From Lachnospiraceae bacterium (GTDB taxonomy: Bacteria; Bacillota; Clostridia; Lachnospirales; Lachnospiraceae): a DNA stretch of 64,000 bases. The DNA lies in NCBI GenBank assembly GCA_024687305.1, contig JAILEQ010000073.1, positions 1-64,000 of the forward strand, read 5' to 3'. Every line of letters begins with the position of its first letter. The first letter of the stretch is position 1. Shown here piece after piece: positions 12,402 through 31,764 of the stretch. The notes under the pieces were generated by a model that worked only from the letters and a program-made list of their open reading frames with translations, was not told the origin of the DNA and searched no databases. The position numbers were made by a program, and so were the translations under genes.

Positions 12402-12446
12402 TTTTTCTATATATGAAATTTCGGAGAAATTTCATATATAGAAAAA
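12402..12446. repeat. Perfect 21-bp inverted repeat with 3-nt loop
   Basis: TTTTTCTATATATGAAATTTC-GGA-GAAATTTCATATATAGAAAAA. Confidence 0.85.
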
Positions 12447-12479
12447 AACAAGCGATGCCCGGAAAACATCGCTTGTTTT
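12442..12479 (-). terminator. Rho-independent terminator of the solute-binding protein gene
   Basis: 13-bp stem AAAACAAGCGATG / CATCGCTTGTTTT followed on the minus strand by a T-run. Confidence 0.85.
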
Positions 12480-12512: not shown

Positions 12513-14000
12513 TTACTTGTTAGCTTCGTCGATGTACTGCTTGTACATATCACGGAATCCGTCAACGATCTCAGAAATAGGGCTCATATCGGGATAGAAC
12601 TTCCATGTGAAAGGCTCACCAAGATCAAGGTTAGGAATTACAGCGTGAAGACCGATCTCAGAGTTCTTACTCATAAGCGGTACTGTCTCGTTGTATGCTC
12701 TCTCATCGAAGTTACCGGTAGCTGTTGTATTGATGTAAGGATTGTAATCTTCGAAACCGGGAACAAACTCATTGTAAAGGCTGTATGCGAATGCACACTT
12801 CCAAGCTGTATCATCATCATAGCATGAAGGGATAACATACATGTTATCTTCTGCTACCTGAACAAGCTTGCCCTTAGGTCCCTTCGGGAACATAACGAAA
12901 CCAAGTTCGTCTTCTGTCTCGTAGAAGAGGTTGCCGGGTGTTGCACAGTACTGCTGATCACAGCAGAATGCAGCTCCGCCGGTCTTGAACTGATCCTGAT
13001 AATAATCCCATGCTGCTGCATTTCCTTCATCATCAACAGGACCGTTCCAGTCATACTTGTTGAACATATCACGAACCCACTCAAGAGCTTCAAGAGTCTC
13101 AGGTGATTCGAACTCATAGGTGTACTTTCCGTCAGCGTCCATGCCTACATACTTGCCGCCGTTTGAGAATACAGCTGCATTAACCATAACGCCTTCGTTA
13201 AGTGCAAGACCCCAGATATCAACGGTACCGTCGTTATCTGTATCCTGCTGAACTTTTTCAAGAATTTCTTCGAATGCCTGCCAAGTCCATGTGTCATTTG
13301 CCTGCATGTCATAAATGTCATCAGGGTTAACACCTGCTTCGGTAAGGATTCTCTTGTTGAAGTATAAACCGGTTCTGGGTTCTGCCCATCCGGCTCTCAT
13401 AGCGTAAACTCCACCGTCGATGGTGTAAAGCTTGTTAACGCCGTTAGCGAACTTAGGCTCGCTGAAGTCAAGGCAATCAAGTTTGGAAAGGTCATAAACA
13501 AGACCCTGTCCGATTGCATTGAGAAGTGTAGATGAAAATCCTGAAGGAAGAGTGAAGACATAATTCTTGTCATCTCCGCCTGCAGTTACATAATCAACGA
13601 AATCCTGAGCAACTGAACCCCAGTCACCGATGGTCTCGCCATGGATCTTGAAGTTGTATGTCTCCTGGATCCAATCCTGGTATGCATACTGAGCTTCTTC
13701 GAAGTCTGTCTTAGCTTCAGCACGCTCGGGAGAGGTGAACCAGTCACGAACGATAACTTCGATTCCGCCAAGGTCATAAGGCTTTCCTGTTGCGGGGTCA
13801 ATAAGTACGGTATACTCGCTTACTTCTTCTTCCTCAACTGATTCGGTTGATTCAACAACTTCGGTAGAATCGGTAGAAGCAGGAGTATTGTCTGTGCTTG
13901 CAGTGCTTGCGGGAGTATTGTTACCGCATGCTGCAACACTCATGGTCATAGCTGCTGCTAAAGAAGCTGCTAAAACCTTCTTTGCCATAGGCTTTCTCAT
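12513..14000 (-). CDS. Extracellular solute-binding lipoprotein (sugar ABC transporter, family 1)
   Basis: 495 aa; lipobox TMSVAAC-GNN; GLYFNKRILTEAGVNPDDI...TWTWQAFEEILEKVQQDTDNDGTVDIWGLAL. Confidence 0.92.
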   Translation of the reverse strand: MRKPMAKKVLAASLAAAMTMSVAACGNNTPASTASTDNTPASTDSTEVVESTESVEEEEVSEYTVLIDPATGKPYDLGGIEVIVRDWFTSPERAEAKTDFEEAQYAYQDWIQETYNFKIHGETIGDWGSVAQDFVDYVTAGGDDKNYVFTLPSGFSSTLLNAIGQGLVYDLSKLDCLDFSEPKFANGVNKLYTIDGGVYAMRAGWAEPRTGLYFNKRILTEAGVNPDDIYDMQANDTWTWQAFEEILEKVQQDTDNDGTVDIWGLALNEGVMVNAAVFSNGGKYVGMDADGKYTYEFESPETLEALEWVRDMFNKYDWNGPVDDEGNAAAWDYYQDQFKTGGAAFCCDQQYCATPGNLFYETEDELGFVMFPKGPKGKLVQVAEDNMYVIPSCYDDDTAWKCAFAYSLYNEFVPGFEDYNPYINTTATGNFDERAYNETVPLMSKNSEIGLHAVIPNLDLGEPFTWKFYPDMSPISEIVDGFRDMYKQYIDEANK

Positions 14001-14162
14001 AGTATTATCCTCCTTTATTTATGCATTTGCTAAGATCGGCGATGTTTAACCTTCCGGGTCAACCGGTCCTCGCAAAAACATCAACGTAATTATTATATCA
14101 TACGCATTAACACATTATCAACATTTTATTTACATTTCGATAACAAAAATGTGCGTATGTTG

Positions 14163-15182
14163 TTACATTTTGATACCTGTGCTCGAAATACTTTCAACAA
14201 ATGCTTTCTGTGCAACCAGATATACCAATACGATAGGGAAAACGATAAGTAACGTTCCCGTTGACATGATACAGTTCGTATACTGAGTCGAAACGTTTGT
14301 CTGGGCATTTACCATACCGAGTTCTCTGGCTACATATACACCGAGTGAATCGGCGATGGTTGCAAGTGATGTGCTGACAAGTTCCTTGCCGCCGATAAAC
14401 AGTTTTGAATAAAAACCATCTGTCCACTGCCATACCAGCGCGAACAAAAAGCATGATGTAATGATCGGTTTTGACTGCGGAACCATTATTCTGATAAATG
14501 TCTTAAACATTCCGCATCCGTCAATATATGCCGCTTCTTCAAGATCGATCGGTATATTTCTGAAGAACTGTCTTACAAGATAGATATAAAGACCGTTCTT
14601 AAGTCCCATACAGGTAGCACTCATAAGATAGTACGGTAGAACGCTTCCTCGAAGATTGATCGGTGCCCCCTTTATCATCTTGATGATACCTAAGATATCG
14701 TAGTTATTAAAGTGAAGCACAAGCGAACTTGAAAATGCCTGAGGCGGTACAATGATAAGTGCCATAACACAGGCGAACCAGAGGTTCTTAAGCGGAAACT
14801 TAAATCTCGAGAAACCGTATCCGACTATAGTACACATGGTAGTCTGGAGTATCGCAATAGTAAGCGATATTATGATCGAATTTTTAAGCGATTCTTTGTA
14901 GTTCATGATACTCGCCGCAACCTGATAGTTCTTACCCGTAAAATGGATCGGGATAGAAACGACTATCGGGTTATAAAGATCCTTCTGATCCATAAAACTT
15001 ACGGAAATCTTGTTGAATATCGGCTCAAGGATGAGAAAACACAGACCGAACAAAAGGACAAATCTGATTATCTTGATCATTACCTGACCGACATCATGTC
15101 TTAAAAGATATCCGCCGGATGCAGCATTTCTTTCCCAATATGTTCCGTATTTTTTAAGTTTAACTTCTTTACTTTTCGTCAT
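14163..15182 (-). CDS. Carbohydrate ABC transporter permease (MalG-like)
   Basis: Six-TM pattern; EEAAYIDGCGMFKTFIRIMVPQSKPIITSCFLF (EAA loop). Confidence 0.93.
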   Translation of the reverse strand: MTKSKEVKLKKYGTYWERNAASGGYLLRHDVGQVMIKIIRFVLLFGLCFLILEPIFNKISVSFMDQKDLYNPIVVSIPIHFTGKNYQVAASIMNYKESLKNSIIISLTIAILQTTMCTIVGYGFSRFKFPLKNLWFACVMALIIVPPQAFSSSLVLHFNNYDILGIIKMIKGAPINLRGSVLPYYLMSATCMGLKNGLYIYLVRQFFRNIPIDLEEAAYIDGCGMFKTFIRIMVPQSKPIITSCFLFALVWQWTDGFYSKLFIGGKELVSTSLATIADSLGVYVARELGMVNAQTNVSTQYTNCIMSTGTLLIVFPIVLVYLVAQKAFVESISSTGIKM

Positions 15183-16110
15183 TGTAATATACCACCTTTG
15201 ATATGAAGAAGGATGTAATGCCTATAAATACGGTGACTATAAGGAAATATGTCCAAGCCATCGCGGATGAAAGTCCGTATCTTAAATCGGTCGTCAAAAC
15301 AGTGTCTATTCTGGTCATGACGTCGTTATCGGATCTCATAGAGTAATCAACGATAGTGTATATCCAGTTTACAAGAAAGATGGAGCTTACCATCGGGAAT
15401 GTGATCTTCCAAAGGCTCTCCCACTTCGTACAACCTTCAATATCGGCCGCTTCATACATACTGCTCGAAATACTCTGAAGACCGGAAATGAATATGATTA
15501 TCTGGATACCCGATGCGGTAGCTATGTCGTAAATATTTTCTATTATCTCAAATACCCACTCATAGGCTCTTGTTCCGACGCCGGCCGTTTCCAGCACTTC
15601 CTGCAGCACTGCCGTAACATCGATATTCGCAACGGCCGTTTCAACGGTATCAGCTATCTGAGCCATCAAAGAGTTGTTCTCTTCAAGTCCTAAGATTACA
15701 CCCGATGACATGATTACCGGGAGGAAGAAAACGGCACGTACAAGGCCTCTTGCCTTGAACTCCTGATTAAGCAACAGCGATACGAAGAAGCTGAATACTA
15801 TTATACCGATGGAATACAGAATCATCTGAGGAAGAACATCCGTTAAATTGACAAGATATTTGGGGTCCGTCCTGAAAGCTTCATAATAATTGGCTAAGCC
15901 GATCCATTTCTTATCAACCACTCCGGATCCGAGTTTTACTTCGCAGAAGCTCATGTAAAGAGATTCAAACAAAGGCTTGGCAAGGAACAGAAGAAAACCT
16001 AGTATGAACGGAGATATGAACATATATCCGGCAATCGCTTTTCTTTTTTGAAGGCCCGAGTATTTTTTGTCTCTCTTCTTGGGAGCTGCATCCTTTTTAT
16101 CGTTCTTCAT
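15169..16110 (-). CDS. Carbohydrate ABC transporter permease (MalF/UgpA-like)
   Basis: AGYMFISPFILGFLLFLAKPLFESLYMSF; YEAADIEGCTKWESLWKITFPMVSSIFLVNWIYTIVD. Confidence 0.92.
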   Translation of the reverse strand: MKNDKKDAAPKKRDKKYSGLQKRKAIAGYMFISPFILGFLLFLAKPLFESLYMSFCEVKLGSGVVDKKWIGLANYYEAFRTDPKYLVNLTDVLPQMILYSIGIIVFSFFVSLLLNQEFKARGLVRAVFFLPVIMSSGVILGLEENNSLMAQIADTVETAVANIDVTAVLQEVLETAGVGTRAYEWVFEIIENIYDIATASGIQIIIFISGLQSISSSMYEAADIEGCTKWESLWKITFPMVSSIFLVNWIYTIVDYSMRSDNDVMTRIDTVLTTDLRYGLSSAMAWTYFLIVTVFIGITSFFISKVVYYNDEK

Positions 16111-16153
16111 TGAATGTTTTACCTTTCAAAAAACTGATTATATCAATCATTTT

Positions 16154-18763
16154 TTACTTAACTACAAAATAATCTCTTGCGGGAACGGTGATACCGTCAA
16201 CATCGTAATCGGAATAACCGTAATTGACATATGTCTTTGTACCGTCCTGATAGGTTGTGACCGTAACATCCTCGGTGATCATCTTGTGATCTGTGATCTC
16301 CTGATTAAATGTATGACCGAGACGCTCGTTATATTCATTGTATATCTCGAGCATTCTGTCGTGCCAAAGTGAGAAATCGGAACCGTAATACTCAGGATAC
16401 AAAGTCTTCTGAAGCGTAAAGGATGATTCATCCATAACAGTAAATGAAAGACCTGCGCCGTATTCTGCCGCATAAAGCACTTCTTCAACATCGTTTCCGC
16501 ACACGTTTAAGGGCATGCCCGCATAATTGATGTACCCGTGAACAGCTATCTGATAAAAAGGAACACCGCCGTCAAGTATGGTATATTCACTGCCCTTTAA
16601 TTCCACTTCGGTAACAAAATCAGCATAGGGAACCGCATAAGCGTTTCCTGAGTTTATCATTACCTTTACGCCGTTGTCCTTTGCATTCTTAAGTTCCGCA
16701 ACCTGCTGGTTCATTGCTTCTTCACGCGAAGTATAGTTCTTTCTGTAAAAATCCGATGAAAGATCACGTCCTATATCCTGGAACGAAGCGTTAGCGTTGT
16801 AGCTCTTTGCGGTTGTAGTAAGCTTGTTCGCATATTTTGCGATACGATCGGGATGAAGCAGGAAATAGTTCTTAAATCCGTCTCTTGCCACATATGTGAT
16901 CGCACTGTATTCGTAAAGTTCGGCACGTTTACGGCTTAAGAACTTTGCAGCGTCTGTATAAGAGAAAAATCCGTTAAAGATATTGCTCTCAAATGCATAT
17001 TCGGTAATACCGTCAAAGTAAAGATCAACTCCGAGTTCATTGGCTTTTGCCGCAAGGTTTTGAATATCTTTCTTGCTGCCGAGTGAATGAATGGGTCTTG
17101 CGCTTGTAAGAACCTTCTGCCTTACTCCGCCGTTGCACCATCCGGTATATTTAACGGAAAGATTGTCTATACCGTCCGATGTGAGTGTTTCGATAAGCCC
17201 CTGTGCTTCTTTATATGTGGTCAAAGGAAGAGGTCTTGAAACCGGAACGCCGAATATCTGCTTTTTCTTATCAACCGCACCGACTATCTCAACGGCAACG
17301 GGGGTGGAAGCATCATCGTTTGGAACAACAAGTTCCGGATAATTCTTTACAAGATATGCTCTGTAATCGTGAGCCATATCAACATAATTGCCCGAGTCTA
17401 CAAATGAATATCTCTGTAATATGCTCTCATCCTGTGGAAGATCTTCAAGATAAACATACATATCAACGTTGGCGCCTGTACCGAGGTCGTATTTTTCACG
17501 AGCCTTTATGGTATATTCGGCACATACATGGTTGAAGGAGTTGTTTCTGCCCGCAACGTCAGCAGTAACACCGGCATATGTCGATCCCTTTTCTATAATA
17601 CATATAAATGAATCGTTGCCCTGCGATATTCCGTAAAGATTTAAGTTTGCCTGAGTTGAGTGAACCACATCCTTACGTTCGATTGCTTTATCCCAACCGT
17701 AAATATTTGCGTAATAAATGTTCTGCTTGCTTTTACCGTTGTTAAAGTTGATTATCGAACCGCCGCCTTCGGGAACGAACATATAACCTTCATCGGTTGT
17801 TCCGCCCGCGCCGAAATAAGGGAGCAACGATATCTTGGAAATGGGATAATCGGTCTTTCCTTCGAGTGACGAAAAAGGAACTTCTACCAAAAGGTCGTCT
17901 CCGTCAAGTCTGTAGATGACGGAAGCATTGAATACGGGAGCCGTATTCTTTCCTTCTCTCTGGTTTACTTCTTTATCTCTTAAGAAGTCTTCATAGGTAT
18001 AACCTGCCGTTTCAAACAGACCCTGAAGCATCTTCTTTTTAACATCTCTCAAGTCATCGGGATCTCTTAATATATAAAGAGGCTCCGTTTCGAGAAGAGG
18101 ATAATTCTGAAGAAGTTCTTCTTTGTTGTCTTTCTTACCGAGTTTATTGATGTCGTAAAGCTTGTAGAAACTCTTAACGGTAGCTCTGTCGGTATTTCCG
18201 AGGCTCTCAAGCAAAGTTTCGAGGTTGGTCTTTGTTATGGCCAACGGGAAAATGAACTCTTTGGAAATTTTACCGATCGAGTAATTTACCTGAATATAAT
18301 CATCGCCTTGCTCTATCTCGTATATACCGTTGGATGTTGAGTATGTGTTGGTATCGAGTGTAACGTCAAGACCGCTTTCGGTACCGTATGTAAGCAAAAA
18401 GTCAGAACTTAACTTTGCTTTTTCTTCGGTTACCGCCAAAGGATCGTCTTCGCCGCCCACTGCGGTTGAGTGCCAAACTTTACCGGAAGATTTGACCGTA
18501 ACGTCAAAATGCGTCGTTATCGGATCCATTACAAGCTTGATCTTATCGTTTTCAAGGGTAATGGGTTTGTCGTCCCCGGCGTATGCTTTAACCTCAATTA
18601 TTTCTTCAGGCACCGGTCTTTCCTGATATTTTATAACGAATACTACCAACGCCGCAAAAATGGCGATCAAAATTCCGGGGAATATCAACCCCTTCAATTC
18701 CTTTATGATGCCGTTTTTTATCTCGCGCTTTCTTTCTTCGCTCATTGGATTTAATTTGCTCAT
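16154..18763 (-). CDS. Large membrane-anchored extracytoplasmic protein, probable DUF5696-type family
   Basis: 869 aa; N-terminal TM GLIFPGILIAIFAALVVFVIKYQ; layout and gene context match my recollection of DUF5696 proteins next to sugar ABC permeases. Family name not verified. Confidence 0.65.
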   Translation of the reverse strand: MSKLNPMSEERKREIKNGIIKELKGLIFPGILIAIFAALVVFVIKYQERPVPEEIIEVKAYAGDDKPITLENDKIKLVMDPITTHFDVTVKSSGKVWHSTAVGGEDDPLAVTEEKAKLSSDFLLTYGTESGLDVTLDTNTYSTSNGIYEIEQGDDYIQVNYSIGKISKEFIFPLAITKTNLETLLESLGNTDRATVKSFYKLYDINKLGKKDNKEELLQNYPLLETEPLYILRDPDDLRDVKKKMLQGLFETAGYTYEDFLRDKEVNQREGKNTAPVFNASVIYRLDGDDLLVEVPFSSLEGKTDYPISKISLLPYFGAGGTTDEGYMFVPEGGGSIINFNNGKSKQNIYYANIYGWDKAIERKDVVHSTQANLNLYGISQGNDSFICIIEKGSTYAGVTADVAGRNNSFNHVCAEYTIKAREKYDLGTGANVDMYVYLEDLPQDESILQRYSFVDSGNYVDMAHDYRAYLVKNYPELVVPNDDASTPVAVEIVGAVDKKKQIFGVPVSRPLPLTTYKEAQGLIETLTSDGIDNLSVKYTGWCNGGVRQKVLTSARPIHSLGSKKDIQNLAAKANELGVDLYFDGITEYAFESNIFNGFFSYTDAAKFLSRKRAELYEYSAITYVARDGFKNYFLLHPDRIAKYANKLTTTAKSYNANASFQDIGRDLSSDFYRKNYTSREEAMNQQVAELKNAKDNGVKVMINSGNAYAVPYADFVTEVELKGSEYTILDGGVPFYQIAVHGYINYAGMPLNVCGNDVEEVLYAAEYGAGLSFTVMDESSFTLQKTLYPEYYGSDFSLWHDRMLEIYNEYNERLGHTFNQEITDHKMITEDVTVTTYQDGTKTYVNYGYSDYDVDGITVPARDYFVVK

Positions 18764-18789
18764 ACTGATCCTCTTTCGTATCCGTTATA

Positions 18790-19446
18790 TTACAGTCGAT
18801 ACAACATTTCTTTTGTTAATGATATAAAGTAAGCCACGCCCTGAGAAACCATACTGAAGAAAAGCATCAGTAAGAATATCATGACTAACATTGCGAATAC
18901 GGTGGCGATAAGGAAAAGAATGTTCTTTCCAAAACCATATTCGTGCACCTGACTCATACCGAGTATTCCGATAAACAAAACCCATATGATGGAAATGACA
19001 TACATAGCCGAGTAAAACTCGCTCTCGTCTACGGTGATGAAATTGCTTAAGAACATCAACGGAAACTGTATGAGCGGATAAGGAGTGATCGCATAACAGG
19101 TGGCTATATAAACCTGGCCCAGTCGCCCTTTACCGTCAAACAGTGTGGTAAGTGCCCAGTTGCCGACAACAAACAGTATGAAAGGCAGCAAAACACTGGC
19201 TATATACATAAAAATATTAAGATCTTCCCAGTATACCTGTATAAAGATGAAACTGGTGTATCTGAGTCTTATAACATAAGCTGCGATAGCCAACACCAGA
19301 ATTGTTGTGGCCGCAGAATATGAACCTCGTTTTTCATGTGTCAGATCCCAAAATCCGTCGATGGGGTGGGTCAGACAGTAAAGAGAGAACTTTAAACTTT
19401 TAAAATATCTCTGCCAATTTTCTTTGCTTTTCAATGCTGCAAACAT
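18790..19446 (-). CDS. YIP1-like multi-pass membrane protein
   Basis: 218 aa; several TMs; LTHPIDGFWDLTHEKRGSYSAATTILVLAIAAYVIRL; GLGRVYIATCYAITPYPL-type motif seen here as GRLGQVYIATCYAITPYPLIQFPL. Confidence 0.7.
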   Translation of the reverse strand: MFAALKSKENWQRYFKSLKFSLYCLTHPIDGFWDLTHEKRGSYSAATTILVLAIAAYVIRLRYTSFIFIQVYWEDLNIFMYIASVLLPFILFVVGNWALTTLFDGKGRLGQVYIATCYAITPYPLIQFPLMFLSNFITVDESEFYSAMYVISIIWVLFIGILGMSQVHEYGFGKNILFLIATVFAMLVMIFLLMLFFSMVSQGVAYFISLTKEMLYRL

Positions 19447-19458
19447 GCCGTTTCTCCG

Positions 19459-20988
19459 TTAGTTGTTATATTTGAATGCATCCGAGATCTGAATCTGATA
19501 CTTAATGAGCTTGATCCTTCCGATTCCGAGAGGGATAAGGAAAAGTGCAAGTATCACGATAACTATCAAAACGATGTGATCTTCGACAAATTCCTTACGA
19601 TGCTTCTTATATGCTTTGGAATAATTATCCGCGTCATACTTAAGCTCGAAATAATCCATTGCTTTATCGTAATCTTTCTGTCTTAAATATGCGCGTCCGA
19701 GACCGATATATGCAAGATCGTAATTGCCGTTGTATTTCATGACTTCACGCCAGGTCTTTCCGGACTTGGCATATTCACCGTTATCAAACTGATCCATGGC
19801 GCCGAACACCAGACGTCCGTAATCGGTAAGCGTAAAAAGTGTGATCGTACAGTCAAGCTGATCGACAACTATGAGATCGTAATCCATATGTTCAAGTGCG
19901 AGCGGATTTCTGAAGTAACCGTCCATATTTCCGGCGCCGCCGAATACGCAGATCATTCTTCCCTGATCGTCGTATGCAAAGAGACGTCCTCTGTTTCTGT
20001 CAAGACAGACGTATGCGTCATTGTCAAAAACGGTAACATCCGCAAATTTCGAAGGTCCCGAATAACCGCCGCCGTTACCCATATAAAGGTCTCCGTATAC
20101 GGGGAATTTTCCGTCCCAGTAAACACCGTTTCTTATAAGAATGTCGTCGCCGAGAGGATTGATCCTTCTGACAGAATCGGCATCTCCCGCTTTAAGAGTG
20201 TCAGCTTCAACGTTACCGGTACAAGCATATATGAAGCCTTCTTTATCCATGTAAAGATTGTCGTACTCTGTAGGAACGAAAGCTTCCATTTTATTGAGCT
20301 GTTCCTGAGTAGCAATCTTTTTCATAAGATACATCTTAAAATCGAACACAACTCGGGTAGCACCTACAAAGCCGTTAAATGTTCCGTCGGCCTCGTATTT
20401 GATGAGACCCTTGTTAATACCGATGGCAACACAATAAACTCTGCCTGCGGTATCTATGGCGATCTTTGAGGGCTGGAATACTATGTCTTTATCTATCGAA
20501 TTGTCGACGGGCTTATTAAACTTCTGAATAAAATTCAGATCTTTGTCAAGTTTAAGGATACGAGCGTTTCCTTTGTCGGCTATATAGAAATCTCCTTCTT
20601 CGGAAATGGCGATATCCGTAGGCGAAGAAAAGGTATTGGGCTTTTCGCTTCCTTTAAATGAAGTGATCTCATCAACAAAAGCAAATGACTCACGACTCGT
20701 TCTTTCAAATATAGCTATACGGTTATTGCCTGTGTCGCATACATACAAAAGATTTCCTACAACACACGAGCCCTGAGGACTGTTAAGTCTCTTTTCAAGA
20801 CCGAGTTCGGTAGATGTGAAAACTTTACACACCGAATACATATCCGGTGAATCCTGAACATCTCCCCAATAATCGTAATTGTACGTATAACTTCTGTCGA
20901 TCGTCGTTGCGTAAGAAGAAAGCGACATACCAAGCAACATTCCTATCGACAATGCAAGTGCTGCAGTTCTTTTAAAACCTTTTCTCAT
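19459..20988 (-). CDS. Secreted, C-terminally anchored NHL-repeat/TPR protein
   Basis: Signal peptide; propeller repeats (GSCVVGNLLYVCDTGNNRIAIF; PTDIAISEEGDFYIADKGNARILKLDKDLNFI; PSKIAIDTAGRVYCVA); TPR-like LAYIGLGRAYLRQKDYDKAMDYFELKYD; C-terminal TM. Confidence 0.82.
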   Translation of the reverse strand: MRKGFKRTAALALSIGMLLGMSLSSYATTIDRSYTYNYDYWGDVQDSPDMYSVCKVFTSTELGLEKRLNSPQGSCVVGNLLYVCDTGNNRIAIFERTSRESFAFVDEITSFKGSEKPNTFSSPTDIAISEEGDFYIADKGNARILKLDKDLNFIQKFNKPVDNSIDKDIVFQPSKIAIDTAGRVYCVAIGINKGLIKYEADGTFNGFVGATRVVFDFKMYLMKKIATQEQLNKMEAFVPTEYDNLYMDKEGFIYACTGNVEADTLKAGDADSVRRINPLGDDILIRNGVYWDGKFPVYGDLYMGNGGGYSGPSKFADVTVFDNDAYVCLDRNRGRLFAYDDQGRMICVFGGAGNMDGYFRNPLALEHMDYDLIVVDQLDCTITLFTLTDYGRLVFGAMDQFDNGEYAKSGKTWREVMKYNGNYDLAYIGLGRAYLRQKDYDKAMDYFELKYDADNYSKAYKKHRKEFVEDHIVLIVIVILALFLIPLGIGRIKLIKYQIQISDAFKYNN

Positions 20989-21016
20989 AATGATCCTCTT
21001 TACGATCTGATTTGTA

Positions 21017-21922
21017 TTAATCCTTTAAGCCGGAGCTTGCCATTGTTTCAAGAATCTGGCTCTCCGAGAAAATGAAGATTGCTATCGGAACTATCATAAC
21101 AACAACCAAAACGGCTGCGCCCTGACCGGTACGTGCGATACCGCCGGCCTGTATCTGCTGAAGTGCATATACAAGTGTCTTCTTCTCTTCGGAATAAATA
21201 AATGTCGAGGCTTTGTTGTTCCAAAGACCCTGAACCGAAAAGATGATAAGTGTCATCCACGCGGGCTTAACGTTTGGCATAACTATACGCCTGAATACGA
21301 GCCATTCATTCGCGCCGTCTATTTTTGCGGCTTCAATAAGTGAGGTCGGAAGACCTTCCATGAACTGCTTCATAAGGAAAAGTCCCATGGGAGAAGCGAA
21401 TGCGGGAATGATTATTGCCCAGTATGTGTCTATCCAGCCAAGTTTGTTAAGCAACATATAGTTGGGAATCTGCGTAACATAACCGGTAAACATCATTGCC
21501 ACGGTAACAAGCTTGAAAAACTGCTGATTGCCGGGAAATTCATATTTCGCAAGTACGAAAGCACCCATGGATGCTACGATAAGATGTCCTGCCGTACCTA
21601 CAAACGTAATGAATGCGGTATTGAAAAGATATCTTGAAAACGTAACCCACGATTTTCCCATCGTAACAAAAAGGTCGGAGAAGTTATCCATAGTGGGGTG
21701 CTGTGCAAATACACGCGGAGGGAATTTGAACAGCTCATCCAAAGGCTTCAATGCCGCACTGACCGCATAAACGATCGGGAAAGCCATGATGCAGGCAACC
21801 AGTACAAGGAAAATGTACAAAGCGATGTCACCGCCGATGGATCTGTTGGGTTTTCTCCTCTTTATGAGGGGCTTTACATATACTTCTTCTTCTATTGCTG
21901 CGTTCTTTTTCTTTCTACTCAT
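21017..21922 (-). CDS. Carbohydrate ABC transporter permease (MalG-like)
   Basis: IEAAKIDGANEWLVFRRIVMPNVKPAWMTLIIF; six-TM pattern. Confidence 0.94.
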   Translation of the reverse strand: MSRKKKNAAIEEEVYVKPLIKRRKPNRSIGGDIALYIFLVLVACIMAFPIVYAVSAALKPLDELFKFPPRVFAQHPTMDNFSDLFVTMGKSWVTFSRYLFNTAFITFVGTAGHLIVASMGAFVLAKYEFPGNQQFFKLVTVAMMFTGYVTQIPNYMLLNKLGWIDTYWAIIIPAFASPMGLFLMKQFMEGLPTSLIEAAKIDGANEWLVFRRIVMPNVKPAWMTLIIFSVQGLWNNKASTFIYSEEKKTLVYALQQIQAGGIARTGQGAAVLVVVMIVPIAIFIFSESQILETMASSGLKD

Positions 21923-21924
21923 TA

Positions 21925-22863
21925 TCAGGTTCCTACTCTTCTTAACAGACTCTGAATTGCTTTATTACATAAAATCATCATAAGGAACAGTATCGTTGCG
22001 ATCGCACAGGCGTAACCCATCTCGAAACGTGAGAAACCGTAGTCGAAAAGGTGAGTTACTATCGTACGTGCCGCATAGTCGGTTGAAGGATAACCGCAAA
22101 GGGCCATTGTAACGTCGCAGACACTGAATGCCTGGGTAATGGACATAACCGCACCGAACATAAGCATGGGCTTCATGTTGGGAAGGGTGATGTACCAAAG
22201 TTCCTGCCATCTGTTCTTTACACCGTCCATATAACCGGCTTCATACTGCGAACCGTCGATACCCTGAAGGCCGGCTACGAATGAAAGGAATCCGGTACCA
22301 AGACTCATCCAGAGAATAACGACCATACATATGGGAAGCATGTATATGGGGTTGATGAGCCAAAGGATAGGCTTGTTGATGATACCCGTGCTCATAAGGA
22401 AAGCATTTACGTATCCGTATGCATCACCTCTGAAGAATACGGAGAAGATAACGTAACAGTTACCTGCTATCGAAGGGGCGTAGAATATTACGACCGCTAC
22501 CGATCTTACCCAGCGGGGAAGTTCATTTATGAGCCAGGCGAATACGAATGAGGCGATGTATCCGAGAGGTCCGGTACATATGGCTATCATGAGCGTATTC
22601 TTGATGGATGTTAAGAAAATCTCATCTTCAAGGATAAGTGATATGTAGTTTTGCAATCCCAGGAAGCGGGGAGCTTCCAGAATGTTGTAGTATGTGAAGC
22701 TGTACCAGATTGATGCTACAACGGGATAGATGAAAAACATTGCGAAAAGTACGGCGTAAGGAGCAAGGAAGAGATAGCACATCTTGCTGCGCTTCATCTT
22801 CTTGAATGCGACCCTGGCGTCGTGTTTTCTCATTATGGCGTATTTTTGAAAAAACTCTTTCAT
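21925..22863 (-). CDS. Carbohydrate ABC transporter permease (MalF-like)
   Basis: YLFLAPYAVLFAMFFIYPVVASIWYSFTYYN; YEAGYMDGVKNRWQELWYITLPNMKPMLMFG. Confidence 0.94.
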   Translation of the reverse strand: MKEFFQKYAIMRKHDARVAFKKMKRSKMCYLFLAPYAVLFAMFFIYPVVASIWYSFTYYNILEAPRFLGLQNYISLILEDEIFLTSIKNTLMIAICTGPLGYIASFVFAWLINELPRWVRSVAVVIFYAPSIAGNCYVIFSVFFRGDAYGYVNAFLMSTGIINKPILWLINPIYMLPICMVVILWMSLGTGFLSFVAGLQGIDGSQYEAGYMDGVKNRWQELWYITLPNMKPMLMFGAVMSITQAFSVCDVTMALCGYPSTDYAARTIVTHLFDYGFSRFEMGYACAIATILFLMMILCNKAIQSLLRRVGT

Positions 22864-25841
22864 TCTTCCATTTCTCCTATCGGTTTAACTTCGGTCCACA
22901 TACCGAACTCTTTACGCTTACGCGTGATCTCGTCGTCTATCTTGACCGAGTAATCGATAATTGTCTCTCTGGTATCGTCTTTATCGTTCAAAACTTTACG
23001 AAGTGCGTTTGTGATATGACGTCCCGTGTAATAACCGCCGGGTACCTCACGGATGCCTACGGTCCAATCCCACTGCTCATTGAGAATCTGAATATCATGA
23101 TAACTCCATGAAAGCTGCGAGAATGCATCTCTGTTTGAAGTAGCGTAACGAGCGGAAGAACCAAGGAGTGCCTCGATCTCACGTCCGAAACGAACCTGCG
23201 TATCGGGATCTGCCCACCACTTCATGTATTCCCATGACTGTTCTTTCTTGCCGTCATGGCAATCGATCATCATGGTTGCGGTACCTGCCACGAAGTCGGA
23301 ACGATCGAGATATACGCTGCCGTCATCGAGAACATATTCCGTTCCGGGAACGAGAGTGAAGTCCCAAAGACCTCTTATCTCGGGTGCGGAAACCATAAGG
23401 GTGTTGTATGTCTGATAAGAGATGATACCGATAGGCATTTCGCCCGAACGGAAACGGCTTACGAAGTCGTAAATGCTCGGAAGACCGTAGTCGTTGAAGT
23501 ATCTCTCGTAATCATCAAACGCTTTTATACCGGCTTCATCATCAACCGTCGTGAACGTTCCTGCCTCGTTGTACATATCTCCGCCGTTCTGATAAAGAAG
23601 TGAGAAGTACATTGAAAGGTCGGGGTTGTTACTCATAACGGCCGTGGTTGCTGCCTGCATATTGCTTGCGCCCGCTGCGGAAGGAATACCTACCGAAAGG
23701 TTGTTGCCCTGAATGGTGGGAAGCATTTCGATAAGTTCCTGCCAAGTGTTGGGAGGTGTAAGTCCGAGCTCGTCAAGAATGTCTTTACGATAGAACATTA
23801 CGTTGAACGTCTGAGTCTCGGGTATACCATAAATGGCTCCGTCAAGTCTGAACTGCTCGTAAGAGCTTTCTTTGTAGTGAGAAAGAACTTCTTCCCAACC
23901 TTCAAACTGAGTAATATCAACCGATGCTCCACGAAGAGCGAAGTCAACGGGTATGTTCGAATTAACGGTAAGAACTACGTTGGGTCCTCTGCCCGCCATA
24001 ACCGCACTTAAGAGTGCGCCCTGATCAACGATCTCAACGTTTACCGGAATGCCGGTGTTTGGTGTGAACGAATCGTCTATCATCGATTTAAGAATGGTAC
24101 CCTGATCACGTCCGGTAAGTACCCAAACCTTGATGACCTGAGAATCTTTTCCGTCATCGTCGTAAACATCGCCTACCGAGTTGTAATCTACAAAGAATGA
24201 AGCTACGAAAGATTTGATCTCGTGCCAAGCCTTGGTGAAGAAGTTTGCTCTTTCTTTCTTGGGCTTTACATCCGTTCCGGATATGGCGATATAGTCAACG
24301 TCAAGACGTGAAATACTTAAATTGAGCTGTGCGGTACCAAGAGCAGTAACGTTATCTTTGAATGACGTGAACTCAAGAGTGATCTTCTGAGGTTTTCTAC
24401 AGAAACGTTCCAACTGCTGTGCAACCGTCTGAGCCGAAGCGATCGAATCGGCCTTCTGTCCCGAATAAGCGACCATGTCATCAACGATCTTGAAGAGTCT
24501 CATCGACTCAAGTTTCATGGCATCCATGATCTCGGGGTAATTTATGTTGATCTTGTAATCTCTGTACTGGTCGGGGTTGGCACCGGTATATACAAGTATC
24601 TTTCTGTATATCTGGTTAAGTCTGAAGGTTGAGTTCTCAAGGTCTTCAAGTATGGGACCGAGTGAACCGAGAGTCGCTTCAAGTCTTATCGTATGCTTGC
24701 CCTTTGTAAGGTAGAATTTGTAAGGTGTACCGTTTTCGTCGGCAAGGTCTTTGCAGTCCCAGTCGTTTCTGTAGTCAAAAGAAACCTCATTGAGTGCGTC
24801 GAAAGGTACTTCGCCGTCGATATATACTCTTCTGTTGGAAACGTTTCCTCTGGAATAGTTCTGACGGGCTTTGATCATGATATTGTAATAACCGTCTTCA
24901 GGAACTTCGAAATCCCATTCTATCCACTGGCCGTTATCTCTCCAGGTATCACCGCCGGAGTAGTTGAGTACCGTATAGGTGACCGAGTTGGGCTGAGTCG
25001 TGGGATTTGAACGGTCAAATTTTGCGTAAAGAGATGACTCCGAACGTATAGTGGAATCCTCGCCCTGTACTATGTTTAAGTAGTTGGCGGCGGTTTCGCT
25101 TGCGTTAACGCTCGGATTCGAAGAAAGGTAATCTTCGTAAGTCTTTTCTTTGGCGATCGCGTTCAAAGAAAGCTTCTTAATGTACATGGGCTCGTTTTCA
25201 CTTATGAAAGTGAGCTTTCTTTTGCCCTCTTCAAAATAGAATCTTAATGGCTCGTTAACATAGCCCATATCGTCTTCTATGAGTTTTGACTGCCAGTCAT
25301 AGATCTCAACCTGCGTGGGACGGATCTCGTTGCCCTGGTTGTCGACCTTCTTTTCTCCTCCGTCTGTCCAGATTCGGGAGAAAGTTATATTCTTTGCTAT
25401 TTCGTATGGATATTCGTCATCAATAAGGATTCCCCTCTCAGCCTGAACGCCTCGTGACTTGGGGATGAGATATTCGATATAGATATTGTAGAAACCGGTT
25501 TCGGGGATATCGATCTCCCAAGAAGCGGTAGATTCAATGTCTGTAAATAATGCTTTTTCGGCGCCTTCGTAATTGTTCTCTACGGTAACATTGCCTTCGG
25601 ATGTGAATTTGAAGATATCGACGTCAATCGTCTTCACTGCATCCTTTACATCGGAATGTTCTTCGATATAACCTGAGTAAGTACCGGTCCTTTCGAGTCC
25701 CGCTACGTCTGTGGAAAGATCCTGCCCTGCGTACTTGTCGTTGAAATTATCAACCTTTCCGAGAGATAAAAGGAAGCAAAGCAGCACAAAACCTGCCAGT
25801 ACCGCTAATGTGATCACAACCTTTTTGGTGTTCTTACTCAT
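22860..25841 (-). CDS. Membrane-anchored fusion: two CBM-like beta-sandwich domains plus extracellular solute-binding domain
   Basis: N-terminal TM VVITLAVLAGFVLLCFLLSL; repeated WEIDIPETGFYNIYIEYLIP and WIEWDFEVPEDGYYNIMIKARQNYSRGNVSNRRVYIDGE; C-terminal SBP (IYGIPETQTFNVMFYRKDILDELGLTPPNTWQELIEMLP). Start at MSKNTKK with RBS GAGGATCAT. Confidence 0.88.
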   Translation of the reverse strand: MSKNTKKVVITLAVLAGFVLLCFLLSLGKVDNFNDKYAGQDLSTDVAGLERTGTYSGYIEEHSDVKDAVKTIDVDIFKFTSEGNVTVENNYEGAEKALFTDIESTASWEIDIPETGFYNIYIEYLIPKSRGVQAERGILIDDEYPYEIAKNITFSRIWTDGGEKKVDNQGNEIRPTQVEIYDWQSKLIEDDMGYVNEPLRFYFEEGKRKLTFISENEPMYIKKLSLNAIAKEKTYEDYLSSNPSVNASETAANYLNIVQGEDSTIRSESSLYAKFDRSNPTTQPNSVTYTVLNYSGGDTWRDNGQWIEWDFEVPEDGYYNIMIKARQNYSRGNVSNRRVYIDGEVPFDALNEVSFDYRNDWDCKDLADENGTPYKFYLTKGKHTIRLEATLGSLGPILEDLENSTFRLNQIYRKILVYTGANPDQYRDYKININYPEIMDAMKLESMRLFKIVDDMVAYSGQKADSIASAQTVAQQLERFCRKPQKITLEFTSFKDNVTALGTAQLNLSISRLDVDYIAISGTDVKPKKERANFFTKAWHEIKSFVASFFVDYNSVGDVYDDDGKDSQVIKVWVLTGRDQGTILKSMIDDSFTPNTGIPVNVEIVDQGALLSAVMAGRGPNVVLTVNSNIPVDFALRGASVDITQFEGWEEVLSHYKESSYEQFRLDGAIYGIPETQTFNVMFYRKDILDELGLTPPNTWQELIEMLPTIQGNNLSVGIPSAAGASNMQAATTAVMSNNPDLSMYFSLLYQNGGDMYNEAGTFTTVDDEAGIKAFDDYERYFNDYGLPSIYDFVSRFRSGEMPIGIISYQTYNTLMVSAPEIRGLWDFTLVPGTEYVLDDGSVYLDRSDFVAGTATMMIDCHDGKKEQSWEYMKWWADPDTQVRFGREIEALLGSSARYATSNRDAFSQLSWSYHDIQILNEQWDWTVGIREVPGGYYTGRHITNALRKVLNDKDDTRETIIDYSVKIDDEITRKRKEFGMWTEVKPIGEMEE

Positions 25842-26175: not shown

Positions 26176-27126
26176 ATGCCCCCTTACATAAATAACGATA
26201 AAAACAACTATGATAATTTCAATTCGGTAAATTCCGACTATCGCGAACGTCTTATCGCGGCCAACAGCGAAGAGCATGTTACGTTTATGTCCAATTCGCT
26301 CCATCGCATATGGTTAAACGACCTTCCGGTAGGTTTTAATTCTCATTGGCATTCCGCTCTTGAGATAATAGTCCCGATGGAAAACTGGTACGATGCCATA
26401 ATAGGTTCCTCAGAATATCATCTTGAGCCCGGTCATATCTTTATCATTCCTCCCGGAGAGGTTCATGAACTTATGGCTCCCGATTCGGGAAAAAGATTTA
26501 TCTTCCTTATGAACATTTCCATAATAAGCAAGATCAGCGGATTTGCCGGCATACAGTCATTGCTGACGCACCCTCTTCATATCACAAAAGAAACATATCC
26601 GCTTGTATACGACGATATTTATCAGATACTTGTCCAGATCCGCAACGAATATTTCCAAAACAGCGAATATTCCGAGCTCGTCATCCAGGCAAGGCTTATC
26701 GATATGTTTGTAAAACTTGCGGAAAATCACATTCATGCCGAAGAACTCTTCCCGACCGTCAAGCCCTACAAGCAAAAAGAATATGTTCAGAAGTTCAACC
26801 AGACTCTGGAATATATCGATTCACATTATACCGAAGACATCAGTCTCGATACGATAGCCAATCAGGCAGGATTTTCCAAATTCCATTTTTCGAGACTGTT
26901 CAAGATCTATACAAACTATACATTCTGCGACTATCTTTGCTACAGGCGTATAAAGGCAGCCGAAGAACTGCTGGCCATACCCGATCACTCGATAACGGAC
27001 GTGGCTATGCAGGCAGGTTTCTCGAGCATTTCCACGTTCAACCGTCTGTTCAAGCAGCACAAAGGCTGTACTCCGAGCGAATACCGTTCAAAGCACACAG
27101 TCGCCGGTTACAGAAACTCACTGTAA
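26176..27126 (+). CDS. AraC-family transcriptional regulator with N-terminal cupin-like sensor domain
   Basis: EPGHIFIIPPGEVHELMAPDSG; C-terminal double HTH YIDSHYTEDISLDTIANQAGFSKFHFSRLFKIYTNYTFCDYLCYRRIKAAEELL...ITDVAMQAGFSSISTFNRLFKQHKGCTPSEYR. Confidence 0.95.
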   Translation: MPPYINNDKNNYDNFNSVNSDYRERLIAANSEEHVTFMSNSLHRIWLNDLPVGFNSHWHSALEIIVPMENWYDAIIGSSEYHLEPGHIFIIPPGEVHELMAPDSGKRFIFLMNISIISKISGFAGIQSLLTHPLHITKETYPLVYDDIYQILVQIRNEYFQNSEYSELVIQARLIDMFVKLAENHIHAEELFPTVKPYKQKEYVQKFNQTLEYIDSHYTEDISLDTIANQAGFSKFHFSRLFKIYTNYTFCDYLCYRRIKAAEELLAIPDHSITDVAMQAGFSSISTFNRLFKQHKGCTPSEYRSKHTVAGYRNSL

Positions 27127-27219: not shown

Positions 27220-28767
27220 CTACTGTTCATAATGATACTTGAAATCCGTAAATACCGCTTCTCCGCCGGCCTCTCTTGTCGAGAACATGAAAAGCCCGAA
27301 TCTGCATCCGGTAAAGTGGTCAAGTCTGAAATATAATTTGTGCGAATTGCCCACTTTAGCCATTCTGCCGTCTTTTAGCCAAAAGAAATCAAGTTTGTCG
27401 ACCATGTTTTCAAACGAAGGTTTGAGACATAGCGTTAATTTCGGCTCCGTAAGTCTTATCTTTTCGACCATCTTGCCGGGGAGATAATCGCCTCCGGAAG
27501 TGCCGATCTTAAACGAAGGATCTTCTTTTATTCGTTCAACCTTCATAAGATAGTAAACTCCGGCGTTCATTGTTATCCCAAGAAACGCATATTCACCCTG
27601 AAGCGCGCACAATCCTGCGACATCGCCTTCTTTTATCTTTGAGGCATCAACCGTGACCTCCGCTTCACACCTTGGCCACATCATCCTCTGAGTAAGAGTG
27701 TTCCTGGCCATCGTAAGGTTTGAGCTTATGCTGCCCGTTCTGAGTACGAGTCCGCCCTCTTCTTTTACTTCCCAGAGCGAATTGTCGGGACAATGGTTCC
27801 ACTCCCATTGAGGCTTCAATCTGTAAGGCACTCCCGGCTGAGGTTTAAAATCATCCGATGTATATAAAGGTTCGTATCTGTAATACGGACGACTTCCGAC
27901 TACGTTAAACGACTTGGGAACCTTACCGTTGGTGCCGAACACCGGAAGATCGTTCTCCCAGGTTATCGGAACAAGTATCGGGATACGTCCGACCGCACCG
28001 CTGTCCTGGAAAAGCATCGCATACCACTTTCCGTTCGGAGTGTCGACTATGCCTCCCTGAGCCACGCCCTGTCCGTCAAGACCTCTGTCATCAGAAAATA
28101 CGTCTTTTCCTTTATATTCTCCGTCAACGGTATCCGAAACAAATACCGCCTCGGTCCTCATCATTCCTTTAGGCCAATGTATAAAGAAAATGTAATACTT
28201 TCCGTTTATCTTATAAAAGTGAGATCCTTCGTAGCCGAGTCCTTCGAAACCTTCGGGTTCTTTTACGATGAGCTTATGGATTCCTCCGGGCAAAGGTGCA
28301 GTCAGATCTTTTTTTAGTTCGGTAAGATATATCTCTTTGTTGCCGTATACGATATAAACTTTTCCATCGTCGTCAAACAAAAGCGAACAATCATGATAAT
28401 AGCCTTCTATCGTCCTCTTCTCCCACGGGCCCTCGACATTTGCGGAGACAAAAAGATATGTGGTCTGAGTATAGTGACTTACAAAGGCGCAATAAAACTT
28501 TCCGTCATGGTAGCGAAGCGTAGGAGCCCACATCCCGCCGGCATAGTTGGTGCGTTCATTTTCGAGCCTTTCTTCCGGAATGTCATCCAGGACATCGAAA
28601 AGATATGAAGCTATCTCCCAATTTACAAGGTCATACGATCTGAGTATGGCGCCTCCCGGCGAAAAATACATCGTCGTACTTGCCATGTAATATACATCTC
28701 CGACTCTTATCACATCGGGATCGGGATAATCGCATTTGGTTATCGGATTGATCTCTGTCAATGGCAT
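27220..28767 (-). CDS. Glycoside hydrolase family 43 (xylosidase/arabinofuranosidase type)
   Basis: NPITKCDYPDPDVIRVGDVYYMASTTMYFSPGGAILRSYDLVNWEIASY; HDCSLLFDDDGKVYIVYGN; GLGYEGSHFYKINGKYYIFFIHW. No signal peptide. Confidence 0.92.
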   Translation of the reverse strand: MPLTEINPITKCDYPDPDVIRVGDVYYMASTTMYFSPGGAILRSYDLVNWEIASYLFDVLDDIPEERLENERTNYAGGMWAPTLRYHDGKFYCAFVSHYTQTTYLFVSANVEGPWEKRTIEGYYHDCSLLFDDDGKVYIVYGNKEIYLTELKKDLTAPLPGGIHKLIVKEPEGFEGLGYEGSHFYKINGKYYIFFIHWPKGMMRTEAVFVSDTVDGEYKGKDVFSDDRGLDGQGVAQGGIVDTPNGKWYAMLFQDSGAVGRIPILVPITWENDLPVFGTNGKVPKSFNVVGSRPYYRYEPLYTSDDFKPQPGVPYRLKPQWEWNHCPDNSLWEVKEEGGLVLRTGSISSNLTMARNTLTQRMMWPRCEAEVTVDASKIKEGDVAGLCALQGEYAFLGITMNAGVYYLMKVERIKEDPSFKIGTSGGDYLPGKMVEKIRLTEPKLTLCLKPSFENMVDKLDFFWLKDGRMAKVGNSHKLYFRLDHFTGCRFGLFMFSTREAGGEAVFTDFKYHYEQ

Positions 28768-28785: not shown

Positions 28786-30492
28786 TTATTTCACTACCGC
28801 AAATCCTAAAATCGTAAATTTCTTTGAATGATCGTCGAGTCTTACTTCGACATGATGTTTCGAGGCTTTTTCTTCTTCGAATACTATCAGAGCATTGGCA
28901 TGCGTCCAGCCGACAATGTGAGGATCGATCGTTATCTTCTCCTCGCCGTCCGCATAAACTTTTGCACTCGTAAACGAAGGAGATGCGGTGTCCATATATA
29001 CGATCATGAGTGCTTTACAGCAAACGTCCACCGCAAACGGCTTATCCGATCCGCCGTCATGCATCCAGTTGTTGGGGAACTCTTTCGATCCAAAGAGGTC
29101 CATCTTTCTCTCGGCATAATGTATCTCGTCGGAATCTTTTGTAAAATCGGCACAATCTATGACCGCTCCGACCGTATTGACCTTGCGGTCAAAGAAAACA
29201 ATATCTTCGAACTGATCGCCTATCGGGGCGGCGATCTTTTTTATATCCGTATCTTCTCCGCCACTTAAACGATCGGCTTCATTGAACATATTCATAAGGC
29301 AGTCGGCCATTATACGATGTCCCGTATTTGTAGGGTGGTAGCAATCATAGAAGAAAGCGAGTTTCGATACCACTCTGCCTTCTCCGGCTTTCAGATAAAA
29401 CTGGGGAGTAACGCATTCTTTAACGCTCACGGTAGGAAGATCGTAAGCTTTACCGACCGGAAGAAGTCTTTCCTGAAGGTTGTAATCATCCTGGAACACC
29501 GAGAAAAGAAGCACTACCGCGGGATTGCCCGGTCCGTTGTATATCTTTCTTACCAAAGAATCGTAGCATCGACCCTCCGTCTCATCTCCGGCATCGTTTA
29601 CCGCAAATTCGACCACTACAAGATCGGGCACGTTCTTTCCGTATTCAAGAACATCCATCTCATATCTTGTAAGACCGAGTTCCGAAGGGGTTCCTCCAAG
29701 ACCTGCCTTTACATATTTAACGTTTGTGTCGTACTCCACTCCCGCAATATCGCAAAAGCCCTCATACGCCTTTCTGGCGTAACAGTTGGCATTGATCGGA
29801 ATGGCGCCGGCACCCTGGGTTATCGAACCGCCTATGAATGCAACACACGTATCTTTGCCGGCTCTTGCCTTTTCGATGGCTCTCTTTACTCTGTAAGTAT
29901 TGCCTTTTATCATAAGCGACCGCTTTATTATCGCTTTATAGGCTTCGGAAGAAAAATCGACAACTTCTTCCTCGGCAGGCTCCGGAGCAGTGAATCCGTC
30001 GTTCAAATAAAATCTTACGGATGCTTTTGCTGCGATACCCGGTCTCGAGAATTCAAATCTTATCTGTCCGGGAATGTTATCATCGTCGGACCACTCAACT
30101 TCATCAAGATTGATGAGTATCTCCGATCCGTCACCCTTTACGGTCTTTCGTATCGTGGTGCCTGAAACGTAAGGATCGGTGTGACCGTACATCTGAAAGC
30201 AGAAGTCGACATATTCATTTAAGTCTTCGGCTTCTACCGAGACACCGATCTGACGCACAAGCTTTTTAAAGCCTTCCGTGCTTCCGAGAAGTTTTAAGAT
30301 CTCTTCATCTTCTATATTTCCGACAAGGCGTGCGCTGCTCTCAAGTCTTCCGTCGCTTTCGTAGATCGGCTGCATACCTTTCCCGCCCGGCCATTGCTGG
30401 GCAAAAATATCTTTCCCCCGCATTATAAAAAACGAGGCGCCCTTTTTGATCGGATCTTTGGGCGCTTTCGGCTGTAAACTGATATCTGTCAT
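28786..30492 (-). CDS. SGNH/GDSL-family hydrolase, putative carbohydrate (xylan acetyl) esterase
   Basis: Block I VAFIGGSITQGAG; VVVEFAVNDAGDE; YHPTNTGHRIMADC; flanking beta-sandwich domains. Start at MTDIS chosen over the longest-ORF start at 30522. Confidence 0.85.
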   Translation of the reverse strand: MTDISLQPKAPKDPIKKGASFFIMRGKDIFAQQWPGGKGMQPIYESDGRLESSARLVGNIEDEEILKLLGSTEGFKKLVRQIGVSVEAEDLNEYVDFCFQMYGHTDPYVSGTTIRKTVKGDGSEILINLDEVEWSDDDNIPGQIRFEFSRPGIAAKASVRFYLNDGFTAPEPAEEEVVDFSSEAYKAIIKRSLMIKGNTYRVKRAIEKARAGKDTCVAFIGGSITQGAGAIPINANCYARKAYEGFCDIAGVEYDTNVKYVKAGLGGTPSELGLTRYEMDVLEYGKNVPDLVVVEFAVNDAGDETEGRCYDSLVRKIYNGPGNPAVVLLFSVFQDDYNLQERLLPVGKAYDLPTVSVKECVTPQFYLKAGEGRVVSKLAFFYDCYHPTNTGHRIMADCLMNMFNEADRLSGGEDTDIKKIAAPIGDQFEDIVFFDRKVNTVGAVIDCADFTKDSDEIHYAERKMDLFGSKEFPNNWMHDGGSDKPFAVDVCCKALMIVYMDTASPSFTSAKVYADGEEKITIDPHIVGWTHANALIVFEEEKASKHHVEVRLDDHSKKFTILGFAVVK

Positions 30493-30522
30493 AATGCTAA
30501 CCCTCCATATTAAAATAATCAT

Positions 30523-30594: not shown

Positions 30595-31731
30595 TCAATA
30601 TTTTTTGTAATTTCCGCTTAATGCAAGAAATGCAAAGAAGTAAAGACAGTTATCGTAATATCTGCGTTCTCCCTTTCTAAGCGGAGTGTTCCAAAACGTT
30701 GTAAGCCATTCTTTTGAAAGATCCGTAATTCCGGTAACGGCTGCGGTCTCGGCTACGGTAGCCAGTATACCCACGGGATGAAGTGCCTTGTTACCCGCGT
30801 ATTCGTCTCCCGTGCGAGTTCCGTCTATTTCGTAAATCCCAAAATCATCTGCTCTCAGATCGCCAATAAGTGCTTTCTGTATCTTTTCGCACATCCGGTA
30901 CTGGCCAAGATCCTCACCGCCCCAAATATGATCGAGAGAAATATTGGCCGCCGTTCTGTAGGCATCCGAGTAAAACCAGTCATGGCGCATATCCATCCAA
31001 GGCAAAGGCTTTTGAAGGGGACGTCCGTCGAATTCGGCATACTCAGCCGAAAAACCGGTAACCGGATGACAGGCCTTTACAAGATATTCACGACTTTCTC
31101 TCGCCGCCTCTTTAAAGAACTCTCTGTCTTCTTCATATGCACGAAGTGCAAAAATATCGTAGAAATGAGGAAGATGATATGAAGGATCGGTTACGGGAAC
31201 GCCCGGAATAAATAATATCTGATGATTGTCAAGGTTAAACATGGGAGCGCCTTCACGTTCCTTACTTCCCTTATGGATCATTGCGGAAAGGATCTTCCTT
31301 GCCTCTTCGGAATAATTAAAAATGCCTTCACCGTCTCCCCATCTTGCCGAAGCAAAGAAAAGTGCCATAGCGTAGTACTCTTCTCCGTCGGGAGCAGGTC
31401 CGTTTGAGTTCGGTGTTCCGTCAGTCTTGCACGACCACGCGAAATAACCTTCGCCCCAGCCTTCCGTCATATACATATATGTTTTCGACCATTTCCAGAT
31501 GCGGTCGAACTGTTCTTTCATATCAAGCTGTACGCATAACATCATGCCGTAACTCATGCCTTCGGTTCTTGCATCGTAGTTGCCGGTGTCCATGATATAT
31601 CCCATGTCTTCACCTGCATCAAAATAAACTTTATCTTCACCGAAGAAATATTCCTGCCTGATCTCTTCAAGCCTTTTTTGAGTCTGCTCGTCGGTTATGC
31701 CGATCTCGTTAAAATAATTCTTATAATTCAT
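30595..31731 (-). CDS. Glycoside hydrolase family 8, reducing-end xylose-releasing exo-oligoxylanase type
   Basis: DMGYIMDTGNYDARTEGMSYGMMLCVQLDMKEQFDRIWKWSKTYMY...GYFAWSCKTDGTPNSNGPAPDGEEYYAMALFFASARWGDG. No signal peptide. Confidence 0.92.
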   Translation of the reverse strand: MNYKNYFNEIGITDEQTQKRLEEIRQEYFFGEDKVYFDAGEDMGYIMDTGNYDARTEGMSYGMMLCVQLDMKEQFDRIWKWSKTYMYMTEGWGEGYFAWSCKTDGTPNSNGPAPDGEEYYAMALFFASARWGDGEGIFNYSEEARKILSAMIHKGSKEREGAPMFNLDNHQILFIPGVPVTDPSYHLPHFYDIFALRAYEEDREFFKEAARESREYLVKACHPVTGFSAEYAEFDGRPLQKPLPWMDMRHDWFYSDAYRTAANISLDHIWGGEDLGQYRMCEKIQKALIGDLRADDFGIYEIDGTRTGDEYAGNKALHPVGILATVAETAAVTGITDLSKEWLTTFWNTPLRKGERRYYDNCLYFFAFLALSGNYKKY

Positions 31732-31764
31732 ATACTCACCATTATGGGTCACCCATCGCCTTAG

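Follow-up and report, generated by a model that had tools for sequence, protein, structure and literature searches.

Carbohydrate importers of the CUT1 type, such as MalEFGK and MsmEFGK, combine a solute-binding protein (SBP) with two ATP-binding cassette (ABC) permeases that carry an EAA loop. The Gram-positive polysaccharide utilization loci (gpPULs) of Roseburia and E. rectale bring degradative enzymes, a transporter and an AraC regulator together (PMC5320581), and in Bacteroidetes, SusCD forms a dedicated glycan-capture complex serving uptake. Here, we describe a nine-gene locus at positions 12513-25841, minus strand, of a 64,000-nucleotide stretch from a Lachnospiraceae bacterium (assembly GCA_024687305.1, contig JAILEQ010000073.1; the window hereafter), which resembles each of these systems in part. 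Like CUT1 importers it pairs SBPs with two EAA-loop permeases, with the ATPase outside the operon and ATPases of the MsmX/UgpC type elsewhere in the genome; unlike them, it has two permease pairs per operon, three conserved non-transporter membrane or envelope proteins, and an SBP with a transmembrane (TM) anchor and a large N-terminal region. As in gpPULs, GH43, GH8 and AraC genes adjoin the cassette, and the terms NHL and Yip1 are absent from the main text of the gpPUL paper. The likeness to SusCD is by analogy only, as the locus has ABC permeases instead and no SusC/SusD-type gene among its annotated parts.

The most likely reading, at about even odds, is that the genes specify a single ATP-driven uptake machine of several components, for nutrients that would mostly be plant sugars, which includes a capture scaffold anchored in the membrane. 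Its components belong to known families, and their combination, breadth and unity appear undescribed in the open-access literature searched, which held no description of the gene set and no paper naming DUF5696; most subscription papers were outside the scope of that search. All nine open reading frames (ORFs) in the interval were confirmed, with domains assigned by Pfam profile search, in the following 5′ to 3′ order.

22860..25841, minus strand: SBPfus, an SBP fusion of 993 aa with an N-terminal TM anchor, an N-terminal region of ~500 aa and a C-terminal SBP_bac domain
21925..22863, minus strand: P1, MalF/UgpA-like ABC permease, EAA-type loop EAGYMDGVKNRW
21017..21922, minus strand: P2, MalG/UgpE-like ABC permease, EAA loop EAAKIDGANEW
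19459..20988, minus strand: NHL/TPR protein, 509 aa, with a signal peptide, NHL beta-propeller, TPR helices and a C-terminal TM helix
18790..19446, minus strand: YIP1-domain integral membrane protein, 218 aa
16154..18763, minus strand: DUF5696 protein, 869 aa, with an N-terminal TM segment, beta-sandwich, TIM barrel and C-terminal beta domain
15169..16110, minus strand: P3, divergent ABC permease, EAA loop EAADIEGCTKW
14163..15182, minus strand: P4, ABC permease, EAA loop EAAYIDGCGMF
12513..14000, minus strand: SBPlipo, solute-binding lipoprotein of 495 aa, lipobox VAAC

A first interpretation of the window from its letters (the sequence-only reading) had given this order and strand with these sizes and domains, all of which were found in the ORF list and Pfam results. 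It had also placed two SBP-permease-permease sets around three middle proteins, and both sets have the CUT1 composition of an SBP plus two EAA-loop permeases, with BPD_transp_1 matched in all four permeases. Its description of the middle three as large membrane or extracytoplasmic proteins is refined by the assignment of YIP1 as an integral membrane protein.

The gene set is a real unit, conserved far above chance. We read neighborhoods in 40 genome stretches and in 80 named contigs, which come from Lachnospiraceae, Clostridia, Lachnotalea glycerini, Butyrivibrio, Treponema and other Spirochaetales; the collection scan used a narrower profile alignment, as alignment A1 was too divergent. Genes were counted at the 96 loci whose flanks reach at least 7.5 kb upstream and at least 3 kb downstream of DUF5696. 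NHL, P3 and P4 accompany DUF5696 at all 96, with NHL before it and P3-P4 after; P1 and P2 are present at 90/96 and SBPfus at 89/96, and YIP1 is a separate gene at 85/96 and fused to NHL in the remaining 11. A lack of conservation elsewhere, which the sequence-only reading had named as grounds for giving up its proposal, is thus contradicted by recovery of the set in other genomes (89/96 to 96/96 loci). The identical set also appears in plasmid records, where the products are called NHL repeat-containing, YIP1 family and DUF5696 domain-containing protein, and the hosts comprise many Firmicutes and some spirochaetes, including rumen treponemes. A full DUF5696 match was present in 37 of 398 phylum genomes. 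The SBPfus N-terminal region was found in 37/37 of these and in 2 of the 361 genomes without DUF5696, both times on short contigs (3.8 and 4.3 kb), an association with a Fisher p of ~4e-50, uncorrected for phylogeny. Genome G121 has separate SBPfus-P1-P2 modules in addition to intact cassettes, while G298 and G452 have this module on a different contig from the DUF5696 match. The cassette has two sub-modules, SBPfus-P1-P2 and NHL(-YIP1)-DUF5696-P3-P4, separable within a genome yet both present, and from these three genomes, operon hitchhiking is not the sole reason for the association of DUF5696 with SBPfus.

P1 and P2 are the most conserved members and SBPlipo is the least, and the EAA-type loop is kept in all four permeases. 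These features bear on a sensory or transceptor role, which we consider improbable, in which SBPfus-P1-P2 and NHL-YIP1-DUF5696 would report ligand to regulators such as AraC and only P3/P4 would transport. Such a role fits the very high conservation and membrane tethering of SBPfus and the divergent AraC gene or two-component pair that adjoins several relatives' cassettes, but the type of regulator varies and often none is present, and the conservation of P1 and P2 with their EAA-type loops speaks against it.

The middle proteins supply the putative scaffold. The 509-aa protein matches NHL (PF01436), with TPR sub-threshold, and the AlphaFold2 modeling that had been proposed for it gave a pLDDT (predicted local distance difference test) of 82.9 and an NHL propeller match. 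YIP1 matches PF04893 at 48 bits against a cut-off of 28.6 and has several predicted TM segments. The 11 fused NHL proteins are 672-738 aa long and carry the YIP1 domain at the C terminus (profile E 1e-22 to 2e-74). Because NHL and YIP1 are fused in these relatives, their sequences imply that the two would pair physically.

The 869-aa protein matches PF18952 (DUF5696) at 656.5 bits against a cut-off of 25.6, over profile positions 2-612 of 612. Its AlphaFold2 model, likewise proposed earlier, has a pLDDT of 88.8 and a glycosidase-like fold, with DagB (5opq, 5.8e-33) and NagBb (5wzp, 1.3e-25) as the best PDB matches by Foldseek, followed by GH101 and GH36; the DUF5696 profile also reaches NagBb by sequence (E 1.4e-6). 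The model shares the beta-sandwich, TIM barrel and C-terminal beta domain of GH129 and GH101 glycosidases (NagBb, DagB, EngBF). The view that the middle proteins offer no obvious catalytic assignment thus fails for DUF5696, in which the canonical catalytic residues are partly kept. DUF5696 differs from GH129/GH101 enzymes in being TM-anchored and operon-bound to two importers, in the lack of a PF11308 match and in the beta5 acid, which was not found. PF11308, the GH129 family, is unmatched at E<=0.01 by the window protein, and likewise by any protein of this genome. Its sole match among the 398 phylum genomes is an 871-aa GH129-domain protein at L188 418-3033 (genome G383, contig C17).

In DagB, Asp202, Asp486 and Glu517 are strictly conserved, and NagBb shares only the Asp435/Asp486 position (PMC5698469). 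Profile alignment and strand order place that position at D663, at the end of beta4 in DUF5696; an hhalign comparison with one GH129-like protein was not reliable at the barrel center, and the mapping does not draw on it. Among 56 representatives, the position is Asp in 62% and otherwise Gly, Ser, Thr, Tyr, His or others. After beta5, where the acid of GH129 would be expected, the same alignment and strand order show no conserved acid, and the window protein reads N704-S705-G706-N707. Conservation is high at D358 (95%), D671 (88%), D731 (89%) and R680 (100%), and E767 lies within the range of 88-100%. DUF5696 thus has a GH129/GH101/GH36-like fold in which the beta4 Asp is only partly conserved and the usual beta5 acid appears absent, and we infer a non-canonical activity. 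An active membrane-anchored glycosidase is a doubtful but serious alternative: DUF5696 would trim a side chain outside the membrane, the importers would independently take the products, and NHL-YIP1 would be an accessory binding platform. It draws on the fold, on D663, which is kept here and in most representatives, and on D671, D731, D358 and R680, which could form a different catalytic set. It is opposed by the loss of D663 in many members, by the lack of a conserved acid after beta5 and of a PF11308 match, and by neighboring enzymes too varied for one fixed linkage.

SBPfus has a single predicted TM segment at residues 8-26, and its N-terminal region gives sub-threshold signals for CBM35 and golvesin-like domains; its SBP part is closest to Lin1841 (5ysb, E 4e-22). 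SBPlipo has no Pfam match, and its profile is closest to the arabino-oligosaccharide SBP 6rjy (1.7e-22). Residues 196 and 457 were checked in relative L137 for a connection with the xylan-adapted SBP mutations of Cphy_2654 (PMC3899296); they do not match, and the idea was dropped. No ATPase gene lies in the window operon. Elsewhere in this genome, orphan-looking TOBE_2-type, MsmX/UgpC-like ATPases are encoded on contigs C110 and C134, with no permease ORF in the 4-kb stretches read, and a third TOBE_2-type ATPase on C41 adjoins permeases. The permeases would most likely be energized in trans by an ATPase of the MsmX/UgpC type.

SBPfus starts at the ATG at 25841 (GTGGAGGATCAT-ATG), preceded by the ribosome-binding site (RBS) GGAGG; an ATG further upstream, at 25898, would extend it. 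From SBPfus to P4, gaps are -14 to 43 nt, and 162 nt separate P4 from SBPlipo. Medians at the 82 loci that have the full set of nine are -8 to 18 nt within the core and 141 nt between P4 and SBPlipo. Around SBPlipo lie three further elements:

14092..14121, minus strand: promoter-like site TTGATA-18-TATAAT with TG before the -10 element, upstream of SBPlipo
14016..14091, minus strand: leader hairpin, its apical loop containing CGGAA, between the promoter-like site and the SBPlipo RBS
12445..12479, minus strand: strong terminator-like hairpin after SBPlipo

The P4-SBPlipo gap holds the region's best promoter-like match, and the same gaps in relatives are enriched in -10-like sequence. The earlier picture of nine genes with mostly tight junctions holds for the eight core genes but not for SBPlipo, and we infer from spacing an 8+1 unit, an eight-gene operon plus SBPlipo as a separately promoted, variable partner.

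Of 67 distinct P4-SBPlipo gaps, 21 contain the motif CCCGGAA (0.7 in shuffles), for the most part 36-83 nt ahead of the SBP start. When 18 examples were folded, 17 placed GGA in a hairpin's apical loop, enclosed by 14-28 pairs; folding z-scores are -1.4 to -6.2. Two close relatives differ by two double compensatory changes, for which the shuffle control is weak (two sequences), and the stem geometry is too variable for MAFFT alignment. CCCGGAA-N35..65-GGAGG has nine matches in this genome and five in a reversed control, and Rfam gave no believable match anywhere in the locus, leader hairpin included. The CCGGAA-type apical loop is conserved, and Lachnospiraceae relatives share the hairpin. CsrA is encoded in the genome, and a CsrA-binding role for the GGA loop is our guess at a candidate.

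The neighboring genes bear on the substrate.

26176..27126, plus strand: divergent AraC-family regulator
27220..28767, minus strand: upstream GH43 with GH43_C2, xylan-type
28786..30522, minus strand: upstream GDSL-type esterase
30595..31752, minus strand: upstream GH8

Besides these, the window has a second GH43 at 3025-4596. Near relatives have GH10, GH5, GH43 and GDSL neighbors, and among 108 flanking proteins from diverse loci are GH10, GH29, GH43, GH67, GH36, GH42, alginate lyase, GH26 and GH130, with 2-3 members each. Because the flanking families are xylan-type here, alike in near relatives and varied at distant loci, the core looks substrate-agnostic, and the substrate in this genome is probably a xylan- or arabinoxylan-derived oligosaccharide. 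In a Paenibacillus cellulosilyticus plasmid cassette (L196, NZ_CP054609.1 79387-105024), ugpC lies directly upstream of SBPfus; the downstream genes include several LLM flavin oxidoreductases as well as extra SBPs, which suggests a non-polysaccharide substrate there. At 1145-2041 and 2060-3016 (minus strand), the window also encodes a pair of mutually similar-looking, Cys-containing proteins of ~300 aa, one with a weak Peptidase_U32 match; 19 relatives have similar pairs next to the cassette, with 33 copies in all.

Following the cassette at 4611-12174 (minus strand) are two HlyD-type proteins, a 933-aa FtsX-domain ABC permease and ATPases, and similar genes follow it in ~20 relatives. If the cassette worked together with these genes in envelope biogenesis or in an export-linked complex, rather than in nutrient import, this HlyD1-HlyD2-FtsX arrangement would be accounted for. 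Most cassettes, however, have no such genes next to them, and here they lie beyond the terminator-like hairpin; SBPs and permeases of the CUT1 type, moreover, belong to importers. We consider this reading very improbable.

We return to a single uptake machine. SBPfus would be a membrane-tethered receptor serving P1/P2, and NHL-YIP1 with the membrane-anchored, GH129-like DUF5696 would act as a scaffold in the envelope, capturing or presenting the ligand and coupling P1/P2 with P3/P4 as the second pair. SBPlipo, variable and with its own promoter, would set specificity, here arabino/xylo-oligosaccharide-like, and an MsmX/UgpC-type ATPase would energize the permeases in trans for import of an oligosaccharide from xylan or arabinoxylan. 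Gene content, order, folds, predicted topology and co-occurrence are observed here; complex formation, coupling and the ligand are proposals. The earlier notion of the middle proteins as a surface assembly tied to two importers fits the spacing, predicted topology and NHL-YIP1 fusions; its single glycan does not, as neighbors differ between lineages. Two points weigh against a single machine: two importers in one operon could work independently, and the DUF5696 residues were mapped by profile alignment together with the order of strands rather than by superposition. We speculate, tentatively, that the locus represents an undescribed importer class of Gram-positives and treponemes, with a constant eight-protein complex, a possibly non-hydrolytic GH129-derived capture protein, a swappable SBP and a leader RNA with a CCGGAA loop that, in Lachnospiraceae, acts on expression of the SBP.

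The cassette is common, being found in 37 of 398 sampled phylum genomes and in rumen treponemes too. If the single-machine proposal is true, fibre-degrading bacteria of the gut, rumen and soil would possess a general uptake machine that exceeds a standard ABC importer in its number of parts, with DUF5696, NHL and YIP1 as components that can be tested directly.

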